A DNA stretch of 64,000 bases, taken from Pirellulales bacterium. GTDB lineage: Bacteria > Planctomycetota > Planctomycetia > Pirellulales > JACPPG01. Within the stretch, counting starts at the first letter, position 1, and the number at the start of each line of letters is the position of its first letter. Both the position numbers and the translations under genes were made by a program. Positions 2,010 through 26,736 of this stretch are shown here, piece after piece. The DNA lies in NCBI GenBank assembly GCA_036490175.1, contig DASXEJ010000008.1, forward strand, positions 1 to 64,000, given 5' to 3'. The notes below the pieces were generated by a model. The model worked only from the letters and a program-made list of their open reading frames with translations. It had not been told where the DNA came from and did not search any database.

Positions 2010-3302
2010 ATGCCCGAGAATCGCTGGGATTTGCTCGCGCGCCGCTACGATACCGGCGAGATCGTGCGCGTAGCGATGGCCGGCACGCGGATTGAAAGCG
2101 TCCAGAGTCCAGGCGTGCCGTTGTCGGGATCAACGTCGGCATCAACATTGTCCCAGGCCGTAGACAATGCTGAAGAATCGTCTCTTCCGTGGGTTTCACC
2201 GGGATTTGTCGACATCCAAATCAATGGCTACGGTGGGCAGGAATTCAGCTCGCTCGACCTGACACCGCAGCGTGTTGCCGACATCGTACGACAGCATTTT
2301 GCTTTTGGCGTGACGCGCGTTTGCCCCACACTAACGACGCAAAGCCTCGCAGTGCTCTCGCATGGCGTGACCACGATTCGTGCTGCCTGTGAAAAATACC
2401 CTGATGTGAATCAGGCAGTTGCCGGCGTTCACTTGGAAGGGCCGTATTTTTCAACCGAGGACGGACCTCGTGGCGCCCACCCGGCCGAGCACTGTCGCCG
2501 GCCGAGTTGGCCGGAGTTTGTGGCGCTGCAAGAGGCCTCCGGTGGTCGCGTGCGTCTGCTTACAATGTCTCCCGAGTTTGACGAGGCGCCCGCGTTCATC
2601 GCGCGGGTTGTCTCCTCGGGCGTGACCGTGGCGATCGGTCATACCGGGGCGAGCGGTAGGCAGATTCGCGCCGCCGTCGATGCCGGCGCCCGGCTGAGCA
2701 CGCATTTGGGCAATGGTGCCCATCGCATGCTGCGGCGGCATCCGAATTATCTTTGGGATCAACTGGCCGAGGATCGACTGTGGGCCAGCTTGATTGTGGA
2801 CGGGCATCATTTGCCCCCCGAGGTCGTGAAGACGTTCTTGCGCGCAAAGACAACGGCCCGGTGTTTGCTGGTTAGCGACGTTTCCGGCCTGGCTGGTTTG
2901 TCGCCCGGCCGCTACACGAGTAGCGGCTGCGAGCTCGAGATTTTGGCCGACGGCCGCCTGGTGATTGCCGGACAGGACCAACTATTGGCCGGCGCCAGCG
3001 CGCCTATTGGCGTTGGCATCGCAAACGTGATGCGTTTCGCCGGTTTGGACGTGACCGAGGCTGTCGGCATGGCCACGCACGCGCCAGCAACGCTGCTGAG
3101 CATTGCGGCAAGTCGCCTGGAAGCGGGATCTGCCGCCGATTTGGTGCTGTTCGATCTACCTGCGGATTTGAACAACGTGCGCGATTGCGCTGAAACCGGG
3201 CAGGCAGCGCCTGACCCTGCGCGGGCCGAGGCGCCAAATACGAACGAAGGCCTGACTATTCGCACCACGATTCTGGCCGGACAGATCGTCTATCAGAAGT
3301 GA
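2010..3302 (+). CDS. nagA: N-acetylglucosamine-6-phosphate deacetylase
   Basis: Amidohydrolase that removes the acetyl group from GlcNAc-6-phosphate, feeding amino sugars into glycolysis or cell-wall recycling; cytosolic. 430 residues, slightly longer than typical NagA (about 380). Visible motifs: PGFVDIQINGYGG (64-76), the metal-ligand segment HLEGPY (141-146, Glu143), GHTGAS (210-215, His211), THLGNGAH (231-238), DGHHLP (264-269) and the catalytic Asp in LLVSD (Asp290). The usual THLFNAM segment is replaced by THLGNGAH, and the SDA motif reads SDV, so substrate range may differ from the E. coli enzyme. It starts at ATG 2010 without a clear Shine-Dalgarno sequence. The downstream neighbour is convergent with a 35-bp gap. 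Confidence 0.88.
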   Translation: MPENRWDLLARRYDTGEIVRVAMAGTRIESVQSPGVPLSGSTSASTLSQAVDNAEESSLPWVSPGFVDIQINGYGGQEFSSLDLTPQRVADIVRQHFAFGVTRVCPTLTTQSLAVLSHGVTTIRAACEKYPDVNQAVAGVHLEGPYFSTEDGPRGAHPAEHCRRPSWPEFVALQEASGGRVRLLTMSPEFDEAPAFIARVVSSGVTVAIGHTGASGRQIRAAVDAGARLSTHLGNGAHRMLRRHPNYLWDQLAEDRLWASLIVDGHHLPPEVVKTFLRAKTTARCLLVSDVSGLAGLSPGRYTSSGCELEILADGRLVIAGQDQLLAGASAPIGVGIANVMRFAGLDVTEAVGMATHAPATLLSIAASRLEAGSAADLVLFDLPADLNNVRDCAETGQAAPDPARAEAPNTNEGLTIRTTILAGQIVYQK

Positions 3303-22587: not shown

Positions 22588-22799
22588 GGGGTGCGATTCC
22601 GGCGGGGCTAGAAGGGCAGGGGCGGGGGTAACGACCGTAGTGTGGTTGGCACAGTCGTGACTGTCAACTTTGAACGTGCCGGTTGCCAAGCGAGGCGTAT
22701 AATTCCCGCCGGAGCTGGCTGAGAGCCGCTCCGGCACTTCGCTTTCGATCGACTTTTGCTCGCATCACGAGTACGGTTTTCTCACTCGGGAGACATCCC

Positions 22800-23225
22800 A
22801 TGAACGCTGCGCTCGAGGGACCGCTGAATCTCGCGGGTCGCATGCTGCTGGCGCTCATTTTCGTGGCCAGTGGTTTTGGCAAGATTGCCGATTGGGAGGG
22901 GACTCAAGGGTACATGGCATCGGCCGGAATGGTGGCCATTCCGGTCTTCCTTGTGGGTGCGATCGTGTTCGAGATCGTGGGGGGATTGTCGGTGGCAAGC
23001 GGCTTCAAGGCCCGTTGGGGTGCCTTGGCACTGATCGTATTCCTCATTCCAACAACGCTGATATTTCATGGCTTTTGGCGCGAAACCGAACCCGGTCCGA
23101 GCCGCGTGCAAATGATCAACTTCATGAAGAATGTGGCGATCGCGGGAGCCATGCTCACCATTGTCGCCCGCGGCGCCGGGGCGTGGAGCCTCGACGCGCT
23201 GCTGGCCGATCGACAAAAGCAGTGA
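22800..23225 (+). CDS. DoxX family membrane protein
   Basis: 141 residues from ATG 22800, preceded by GGGAGAC. Four hydrophobic helices are visible (about 10-30, 47-68, 72-90 and 107-125). The pattern LALIFVASGFGKIADWEGT near the N-terminus is typical of DoxX/DoxD-like small integral membrane proteins. The exact role is unclear; relatives are linked to quinone or thiol redox reactions. It is followed 124 bp later by a pirin gene on the same strand, a frequent pairing. Confidence 0.88.
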   Translation: MNAALEGPLNLAGRMLLALIFVASGFGKIADWEGTQGYMASAGMVAIPVFLVGAIVFEIVGGLSVASGFKARWGALALIVFLIPTTLIFHGFWRETEPGPSRVQMINFMKNVAIAGAMLTIVARGAGAWSLDALLADRQKQ

Positions 23226-23349
23226 CACGACCTGCCGTGATGTATCGGGGATACTCATGCGGTCGGGATCATCGCAAGCCCAGCGGCCTCGTCGAAGTAT
23301 TTATCCGCCAGCCGCATGTTTTTGACCTTAAGACGAAGGGAACAGAATC

Positions 23350-24048
23350 ATGATCATGCTGCGACGCTCGGCCGAGCGCGGCCACTTCGACCACGGTTGG
23401 CTCGACACCTATCACACGTTCTCGTTTGGCGACTATTACGACCCGCGGCATATGGGCTTTCGCACTCTGCGTGTGATCAATGAAGACCGCGTGAAACCGG
23501 GCGGCGGTTTTGGCATGCACGGCCACCGAGATATGGAAATCGTGACGCTCGTGCTGGCGGGACAATTGGAGCACAAGGACAGCCTGGGGACCGGTTCGGT
23601 GATTCGTCCCGGCGATTTGCAGCGCATGTCGGCCGGTACCGATATCCGGCATAGCGAGTTCAATCCTTCGGCAACCGATTCGGTTCACCTGCTGCAAATC
23701 TGGATTACGCCCCGCAAGCCAGGGTTGACCCCTCAGTACGAGCAGCGGCAGTTTCCTGCCGACGCCCGTAGCGGACGGTGGCAGCTAGTGGCCTCGCCCG
23801 ACGGGCACGACGGCAGCTTGACCATTCACCAGGACGCGCGGATTTCGTGGGCCACTCTGGGGCCGGGGCAATCGCTCGACTATACGTTCGCGGAGGGCCG
23901 CTACGGTTGGCTCCAGGTAATCTACGGTGAGATTAGCGTCGGCAACGACGCGCTTTCCGCCGGTGACGGCGCCGGACTGATCGACGAGGCGCATCTAAAA
24001 ATCACGGCGCGCGAGTCGGCCGAGCTGTTGCTGTTCGATCTGGGTTGA
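23350..24048 (+). CDS. Pirin-family bicupin
   Basis: 232 residues, bicupin pirin-like protein of the YhhW (quercetin 2,3-dioxygenase) type. The N-terminal cupin shows RSAERGHFDHGWLDTYHTFSF and FGMHGHRDMEIVTLVLAGQLEHKDS, which supply the metal-ligand set (His57, His59, His101, Glu103 in pirin numbering). The C-terminal cupin (about 145-232) is typically metal-free. Proposed roles are redox sensing or dioxygenase activity, cytosolic. An AAGGGAACAG sequence precedes the ATG. Likely co-transcribed with DoxX. Confidence 0.92.
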   Translation: MIMLRRSAERGHFDHGWLDTYHTFSFGDYYDPRHMGFRTLRVINEDRVKPGGGFGMHGHRDMEIVTLVLAGQLEHKDSLGTGSVIRPGDLQRMSAGTDIRHSEFNPSATDSVHLLQIWITPRKPGLTPQYEQRQFPADARSGRWQLVASPDGHDGSLTIHQDARISWATLGPGQSLDYTFAEGRYGWLQVIYGEISVGNDALSAGDGAGLIDEAHLKITARESAELLLFDLG

Positions 24049-24222
24049 ACGCCATGAGCGCCAGTACCCTGTCGCGACATCCGGATGCGCGCAGCAGCAG
24101 ATACAACGGCTGCATGGTAGCAATTCACATCCGACATTCTGTCGGCTTTTTGCTCGGCAGGAGTGTTCGCGTGTCGTACAATCACGCGCATTCAGGGGTG
24201 CACTTCGTCGAACGAGGCCCTC

Positions 24223-24771
24223 ATGGCTGAGCAGGAAGCTGCCCATTCGCTGGTCGTTGGTGAATTCTTAGAGTTGATTCGCGAGGGGCATTGGGAATAC
24301 GCGAAGCGAACCAACTCGCCAGGCGCCGTCGTGATCGTGCCGGTGACCGATGACGGCCAACTCGTGCTGATCGAACAATATCGCATTCCGGTGGCGCATC
24401 GCGTGATCGAGCTTCCCGCTGGACTGGTGGGAGATTCCAGCGACGACCAGGGAGAAACAGTAGAGACGGCCGCGCGCCGCGAACTGCTGGAAGAGACCGG
24501 CTACGAAGCGTGGGAGTTGCGCGAGTTGACCTGCGGTCCGCCGTCGGCCGGCATGAGCTCCGAGGTCGTCACCTTTCTGCTCGCTACACATCTCAAGCGC
24601 GCCGGCTCCGGCGGCGGCGTTCACACCGAGCAAATCGAGGTCCACAGCATTCCGCTGGCCGACGTGCCGCGCTGGCTCGACAAGCGTCGCGACAAAGGGG
24701 TCATGGTGGACCCCAAGGTTTACGCCGGGCTGTACTTTGCCGAGCGGGCCGTGCGCAACGGCGGCCACTAA
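24223..24771 (+). CDS. Nudix hydrolase (ADP-ribose pyrophosphatase-like)
   Basis: 182 residues from ATG 24223; the upstream in-frame start at 24163 gives a non-homologous extension. The Nudix box core RRELLEETGYE is present with the preceding Glu in GETVETAA; the glycine expected five residues before it is displaced by the acidic insert GDSSDDQGE. The segment LIEQYRIPVAHRVIELPAGLV is typical of ADP-ribose/NDP-sugar pyrophosphatases. It cleaves nucleoside diphosphate-X compounds in the cytosol. It is convergent with the GNAT gene. Confidence 0.9.
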   Translation: MAEQEAAHSLVVGEFLELIREGHWEYAKRTNSPGAVVIVPVTDDGQLVLIEQYRIPVAHRVIELPAGLVGDSSDDQGETVETAARRELLEETGYEAWELRELTCGPPSAGMSSEVVTFLLATHLKRAGSGGGVHTEQIEVHSIPLADVPRWLDKRRDKGVMVDPKVYAGLYFAERAVRNGGH

Positions 24772-25356: not shown

Positions 25357-26736
25357 TTATGTCGCCAGTGGCCCCGTCGCGCAGTTCGCCAATTCGTCGG
25401 CTATGTCTTGCATAGTGGCGTCGCGCTCGCGTGGGTCGTGCACCAGGGCCTTGCGTACGATCGCGGCGAACGGCTCTGGCAACTGGCTGGCCAGCGCTGC
25501 GGCGTCCGCGTGGCGAATGCGATTGAGGACCTGTAATACATTATCACCGTCGAAGGCCCGTTGGCCACTGAACATCTCGTATAACATTGTGCCCAACGAA
25601 AAGACGTCGCTGGCTATCGTCGCCCGCTCGCCGTTGGCTTGCTCTGGGGACATATAGCACGGAGTTCCGGCGAGACTCCCTGAGCTGATGCCCAATAGGT
25701 CGGTGGTATCGTCCGGGGTTGCGGATCGCACCTCGCGACGCGAAAGTCCGAAATCCAGCAACTTCACTACGCCGCTGTCCGTCACAAAGATGTTGGCCGG
25801 TTTCAAATCGCCGTGTACGATGCCGCGAGCATGGGCCGCGGCCATGCCGGCGGCGATTTGCTGTGCCAAGTTGGCGCACGACTCGGCGGACAGCGGGCCG
25901 TCTTCGATAACCCGGCTGAGCGGCCTGCCGGCCAGATACTCCATGGCGATCACCGGCACGCCTTCGCTGTCGTCGACGCTGTATACCGTACAGACGTTGA
26001 CGTGATTCAGCGCGGCTGCGGCGCGGGCTTCCGCCAGCACGGCGCCGGCGTTGGCCGGGCTGCCGACCTTCAAGACTTTCAGCGCCACCGAACGGTGCAA
26101 TGTTGTGTCCTGCGCGCGAAATACCGAGGCAAACGCGCCGCTACCGATCTGCTCTTCGATGCGGTAGTGCGACAACACGCTGCCGGGCCCCAATGATCGT
26201 GGTTTATCGAGCGTGGACTCGCCGGGGCTCCAATTCTCGGCGCACAGCCCGCCGGTCTGCAGAGCGGCCAGCACACGCAGTATTTCATCGGTCCGGCGTC
26301 CGACGCTGAGATTGTGAACCACTTGGTATTGTAAGACGCTGTTGGGGTCGATGATGAACAGCCCGCGCAGCGCCACGTGCTGCGTTTCCAGAAACACTCC
26401 GTAGTCGCGGCAGGCGGCTCCCGACACGTCGCTGGCCAGCGGATAGCCGAGCCCGCTGAGCCCTCCCTGCGCGCGGGGAGTGCCAATCCAGCGCTGGTGC
26501 GATTCCAGGGTGTCGGCACTGATGCCCAAGGCATCGCAGCCACGGCGCGTGAATTCTTCGATGCGGGCCCCGATCGCCGTCAATTCGGTGGGGCACACCA
26601 GCGAAAAATCGCGAGGGTAGAAGATCAGCACCAACCAGCGACCCCGGAAGTCGGCCAGCCGGCTGCGGCCCGCGGCGGCGGTCGAAGGGAGGTCGAAATC
26701 AGGTGCCAGGCTGCCGACCGCGGCATTTGTCGTCAT
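25357..26736 (-). CDS. 2-Cys peroxiredoxin fused to a soluble Ser/Thr protein kinase
   Basis: 459 residues from ATG 26736. Residues 1-178 form a complete AhpC/Prx1-type typical 2-Cys peroxiredoxin: FYPRDFSLVCPTEL with peroxidatic Cys48 (the Thr of the PxxxTxxC motif is Ser45), LRGLFIIDPNSVLQY, and GGLCAENWSPGES with resolving Cys165. Residues 190-440 form a Hanks-type kinase: GSGAFASVF Gly loop (198-206), VALK Lys220, alpha-C Glu236, HGDLKPANI (308-316; Asp310, Asn315), DFG 328-330 and SPE 363-365. All catalytic kinase residues are present; HRD reads HGD, so it is a non-RD kinase. No membrane helix, unlike most planctomycete kinases. Reading: peroxide oxidation of Cys48/Cys165 may control kinase activity in the cytosol. 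GNAT gene follows 46 bp downstream. Confidence 0.93.
   Translation of the reverse strand: MTTNAAVGSLAPDFDLPSTAAAGRSRLADFRGRWLVLIFYPRDFSLVCPTELTAIGARIEEFTRRGCDALGISADTLESHQRWIGTPRAQGGLSGLGYPLASDVSGAACRDYGVFLETQHVALRGLFIIDPNSVLQYQVVHNLSVGRRTDEILRVLAALQTGGLCAENWSPGESTLDKPRSLGPGSVLSHYRIEEQIGSGAFASVFRAQDTTLHRSVALKVLKVGSPANAGAVLAEARAAAALNHVNVCTVYSVDDSEGVPVIAMEYLAGRPLSRVIEDGPLSAESCANLAQQIAAGMAAAHARGIVHGDLKPANIFVTDSGVVKLLDFGLSRREVRSATPDDTTDLLGISSGSLAGTPCYMSPEQANGERATIASDVFSLGTMLYEMFSGQRAFDGDNVLQVLNRIRHADAAALASQLPEPFAAIVRKALVHDPRERDATMQDIADELANCATGPLAT

Follow-up and report, generated by a model that had tools for sequence, protein, structure and literature searches.

Does a bacterial gene that joins a peroxiredoxin (Prx) to a Ser/Thr kinase encode a protein in which peroxide controls phosphorylation? 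The question is raised by a gene on the minus strand of the 64,000-nt stretch of DNA that was analysed (the window), at positions 25357..26736 (ATG at 26736, stop at 25359-25357), which encodes a Prx-kinase fusion of 459 amino acids (aa). An earlier note had described this single frame with correct coordinates and the strand unstated, and the residues it named (Cys48, Cys165, Lys220, Asp310, Asn315, and DFG 328-330) are all where it placed them. From comparative sequence analysis, the fusion is probably a single-chain, soluble, single-copy peroxide-sensing Ser/Thr kinase.

Two catalytic domains in one chain

The protein has two Pfam matches far over the cut-off, AhpC-TSA (residues 7-137, 1.8e-32) and Pkinase (residues 191-442, 7.9e-46). 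No membrane segment was evident in it, as the earlier note had held, and its hydrophobic stretches are ordinary kinase-core helices only. The family alignment used for the residue counts comprised the best 54 distinct fusion sequences, the window's included. An AlphaFold monomer model was built on a 48-row family alignment and contained two confident domains (mean pLDDT 84; pTM 0.60). In a Foldseek search, the kinase half matched PknB/PknA structures and the Prx half those of human Prx2/3/4. The arm at residues 163-177 was modelled with low confidence (pLDDT <50), and no defined Prx-kinase interface was seen in this monomer model. The missing interface is not decisive against a sensing kinase because the arm is without its dimer partner in a monomer.

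The Prx1/AhpC-type domain (26203..26718, minus strand, residues 7-178) matches human Prx2 at 9e-44 with 42% identity. It combines the AhpC-TSA domain, the PxxxT/SxxC motif, and the catalytic Arg of typical 2-Cys Prxs with their arm motif for the resolving Cys, xxxCxxxW. The codon of the peroxidatic Cys48 (26593..26595, minus strand) is Cys in 52/54 sequences and TGA in 2/54. The resolving Cys165 (codon at 26242..26244, minus strand) and Arg124 are invariant (54/54 each), Ser45 is kept in 53/54, and Trp169 in 50/54. Scores fall below the cut-offs of the NCBIfam equivalogs AhpC (TIGR03137; 99 vs 272 bits) and PrxU (NF040737; 117 vs 270 bits). The arm of Prx1-family proteins bears a YF helix and shifts upon disulfide formation. 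In the fusion, the arm/linker from Cys165 to the kinase (26167..26241, minus strand, residues 166-190) stands in place of this helix, and the spacing from Cys165 to the start of the kinase (Tyr191) is 25 residues in 50/54 sequences and 26 in 4/54. What had been called a complete typical 2-Cys Prx is therefore complete in its catalytic set and lacks the C-terminal YF helix, the kinase being there instead.

The soluble Hanks-type Ser/Thr kinase domain (25411..26166, minus strand, residues 191-442) has the PknB/PknA fold and the defining Hanks elements (Pkinase domain, Lys, Glu, HxDxxxxN, and DFG), with Lys220, Glu236, Asn315, Asp328-Phe-Gly, and Asp377 kept in 54/54 fusions. The invariance of all catalytic residues of both domains across the 54 sequences (Cys or selenocysteine [Sec] at 48) supports the sensing-kinase reading. 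The catalytic loop is of the non-RD type, with HGD at residues 308-310 (25807..25815, minus strand) in 54/54 fusions and no Arg before the catalytic Asp; HGD was found in 0/78 compared non-fusion kinases, Arg being present in 29/29 distinct own-genome kinases and 49/49 kinases from other loci. The activation segment, from DFG (328) to GT (358) (25663..25755, minus strand), carries a conserved Thr344 (49/54), commonly in a [DE]xT context, in the loop that takes the place of the usual TxTG. The [DE]xT pattern occurs in 30/54 fusions vs 1/72 other kinases. We take this pattern (residues 342-347) to recall FHA-docking phospho-threonine sites, and Thr344 might recruit an FHA protein.

Ser45 and HGD, listed as oddities in the earlier note, are present and turn out to define the family. 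The loss of the HRD Arg and of the TxTG loop suggests that the kinase has become independent of classical activation-loop phosphorylation and receives its input from the Prx. The restriction of HGD and of the rebuilt activation loop to the fusions supports a sensing kinase, as does the low dN/dS of both domains; within the genus, purifying selection was found for the Prx half (pN 0.11-0.12 vs pS 0.57-0.65) and for the faster-evolving kinase half (pN 0.17-0.22 vs pS 0.58-0.64). Against this reading, HGD may also be a sign that the kinase chemistry is altered or weak. Cys249 is present in 49/54 fusions vs 0/29 distinct own-genome kinases and 2/49 others. A disulfide relay from the Prx to Cys249 is at most a possibility, its beta4 site being expected to be buried and the residue being absent in some members.

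Probable selenocysteine at codon 48

In two species, L110 (= L015, a Gemmataceae MAG) and L119, the fusion gene has TGA exactly at codon 48 as the sole in-frame stop, in the context FY..DFSLV*PTEL in both (L015 positions 3288-3290; L119 positions 1654-1656). SelB scored over the curated cut-off in both genomes (368 and 358 bits), and both have a tRNA-Sec with a UCA anticodon. Both genes also have a SECIS-like hairpin at equal offset, the loop coming 17 nt past the TGA: ACCGC-(5 nt, G in the first two)-GCGGU. The hairpin is strong in L119, with a z score of -3.9, and less so in L110, with one of -1.6; in the Cys-bearing relative L112 it is disrupted. The three marks of a selenoprotein gene (in-frame TGA where a redox Cys is expected, the genomic machinery for Sec, and a 3' SECIS hairpin) were found together in L110 and L119 only. 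L112, a third member of the family of the TGA species, has the Sec machinery, yet Cys at 48. Neither SelB nor tRNA-Sec was found in the window's genome, where the best matches were a below-cut-off elongation factor and a tRNA-Ser.

Residue 48 is very probably selenocysteine in L110/L015 and L119. As Sec in place of Cys is sensible only if residue 48 catalyses redox chemistry, there is a strong case for selection on peroxide chemistry within the fusion. Sec at 48, with SelB, tRNA-Sec, and hairpin in two species, supports the sensing-kinase reading, and we regard it as the strongest evidence for the fused Prx being an active peroxidase or peroxide sensor. To our knowledge, all known bacterial Sec peroxiredoxins are stand-alone. 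Those on record (PMC1794560; PrxU) likewise have Sec at the peroxidatic position and differ from the Sec form of the fusion, which bears a kinase.

Proposed peroxide sensing and its alternatives

In the proposed mechanism, the Prx, with Pro41, Ser45, Cys48, Arg124, and Cys165, would react with H2O2 and form an inter-subunit Cys48-Cys165' disulfide. Going by known Prx1-family structures, the active-site loop and the Cys165-bearing arm would then unfold and the decamer would loosen. Because the kinase starts 25-26 residues past Cys165 at constant spacing and replaces the YF helix, the moving arm doubles as the tether of the kinase N-lobe. The redox or oligomer state would set the spacing and orientation of paired kinases and hence their (trans-)phosphorylation, and disulfide reduction of the thioredoxin type would reset the kinase. 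We infer redox control of the kinase, on or off, by the Prx arm. The more specific proposal, that in this bacterial family Prx catalysis (with Sec in some species) directly gates a non-RD kinase via the resolving-Cys arm, we hold at even chances.

Control could instead run in reverse, with the kinase phosphorylating its own Prx or its decamer partners and so tuning the peroxidase, the fusion then being an antioxidant enzyme and no sensor. Eukaryotic kinases do phosphorylate Prx1/2 and tune the peroxidase in this way, and the slower evolution of the Prx half would fit. A search for further AhpC/Prx1-type proteins came up empty in 10/23 bearing genomes examined, the window's among them; there the fusion, as the sole peroxidase of this type found, is perhaps the housekeeping enzyme. 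The remaining 13/23 hold a separate AhpC-type Prx, however, and the combination of kept catalytic residues and rebuilt regulatory parts is a better fit to a changed kinase input; reverse control is considered unlikely. The absence of another AhpC/Prx1-type protein in those 10 genomes also supports the sensing kinase, and there the fusion may additionally act as a general peroxidase. Replacement of a stand-alone AhpC by the fusion was considered and not adopted; the numbers are suggestive (AhpC missing in 10/23 vs 2/16), but Fisher p=0.08 and the genomes are related.

A Prx ring might also serve as a scaffold that gathers kinase domains, its redox chemistry being incidental. Prx1-family proteins form decamers, and clustering helps trans-autophosphorylation, but a scaffold needs neither the invariant Cys48 (or Sec), Arg124, and Cys165 nor Sec at the peroxidatic site, and this explanation is improbable.

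Slightly more doubtful still is a chain of two uncoupled enzymes joined for co-expression only, a reading that would suit the lack of both an interface and a conserved neighbour. Across the families compared, no neighbour gene or operon of the fusion was conserved, and no support came for a peroxide regulon, a point against the sensing kinase; methyltransferase and NUDIX neighbours are common to the fusion loci within the genus only. In the window, DoxX, pirin (quercetinase-like cupin), and NUDIX genes lie in a row nearby (22683-24771, plus strand). A GNAT gene 46 bp downstream of the fusion had been proposed as its substrate or co-effector; no such gene adjoins the orthologues in two other genomes of the window's genus (G019 and G036), nor is it conserved in other families, and it is not supported as a partner. 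Of the joint enzyme earlier proposed, soluble Prx chemistry and phosphorylation in one protein stand without this partner.

Against two uncoupled enzymes are the constant junction length, the confinement of the kinase changes to the fusion, and the shared history of the halves across 54 sequences. Set against 27 stand-alone Prxs, the Prx halves of the fusions group as a single clade (99 SH-aLRT); their kinase halves do likewise when set against 85 other kinase rows (99 SH-aLRT), and the pairwise distances of the two halves are correlated at r=0.87 (permuted maximum 0.21). The single clades and mirrored distances point to one ancient fusion event without later exchange of partners, and together with the constant Cys165-kinase spacing they favour the peroxide-sensing kinase.

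Although the window is from a 393-contig draft assembly, a sequencing or assembly artefact merging two genes is ruled out for practical purposes by at least 53 further full-length fusions of distinct sequence. These are spread over many genera, and several lie in genomes assembled as a single contig (G435 and G477, for example). With this answer to the search for the AhpC/TSA plus Pkinase architecture that the earlier note had proposed, two of the objections it had foreseen, a sequencing error and the lack of a homologue with the same fusion, fall away. Every one of these fusions comes from Planctomycetota, with a single copy in each genome. Scanning the species genomes of GTDB gave 11 full-length fusions among the best 80 loci, all in Planctomycetota records, and whole-genome searches gave 19/397 bearing genomes in the order, 42/398 in the class, and 12/392 in the phylum (overlapping samples), again once per genome. 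Whole-genome sampling outside Planctomycetota covered Verrucomicrobiota and Acidobacteriota, with 0/309 genomes in the phylum sample of L025 (Verrucomicrobia / Verrucomicrobiota) and 0/317 in that of L024 (Acidobacteria / Acidobacteriota). The family is patchily spread (the 42/398 genomes of the class), which counts against the sensing-kinase reading. In G696 (L135:1501-3981), the fusion runs on into another kinase domain, giving a Prx-kinase-kinase protein of 827 aa. In G046 (L096 / L158), assigned to the window's genus, the fusion lies on a 9.5 kb contig and clusters with L119, a Sec-bearing member from another family, owing to horizontal transfer or a binning error.

Known systems and significance

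With the typical 2-Cys Prxs of the Prx1/AhpC type (human Prx1/Prx2, AhpC, and PrxU), the fusion has in common the fold, the Cp and Cr motifs, Arg124, and a loop that is mostly GG[LIV]G; it differs by Ser45 for Thr and by the kinase replacing the YF helix. With PknB/StkP-type Hanks kinases it shares the whole kinase fold and the Lys/Glu/Asp/Asn/DFG set; it differs by HGD for HRD, the loss of the TxTG loop, the lack of a transmembrane or PASTA part, and the N-terminal Prx. Eukaryotic Prx-kinase redox relays include Tpx1-Sty1 and Tsa1-PKA. The Prx1-ASK1 relay, also between separate proteins (PMC8300624), is a two-protein precedent that supports the sensing-kinase reading. In these relays, too, a Ser/Thr kinase learns of peroxide from a 2-Cys Prx; two proteins meet there, whereas the fusion is one bacterial chain.

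No published description of a single-chain Prx-kinase was found in the literature searched, an absence that is not proof, and redoxins are unmentioned in the main text of a survey of planctomycete kinases (PMC11032199). The family is apparently undescribed in that literature.

Peroxide signalling from Prx to kinase in eukaryotes is debated because two abundant separate proteins must meet. Where nature has joined the two covalently, the coupling step stands alone and can be tested on a single purified protein, and pairs of Sec and Cys fusions form a natural experiment in which sensor sensitivity can be compared. The fusion would also give a specific cue, peroxide, to one among the many orphan planctomycete kinases. 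We know of no earlier protein kinase from bacteria that carries a sensor peroxidase of its own, and if the proposed reading is true, the fusion would be the first.
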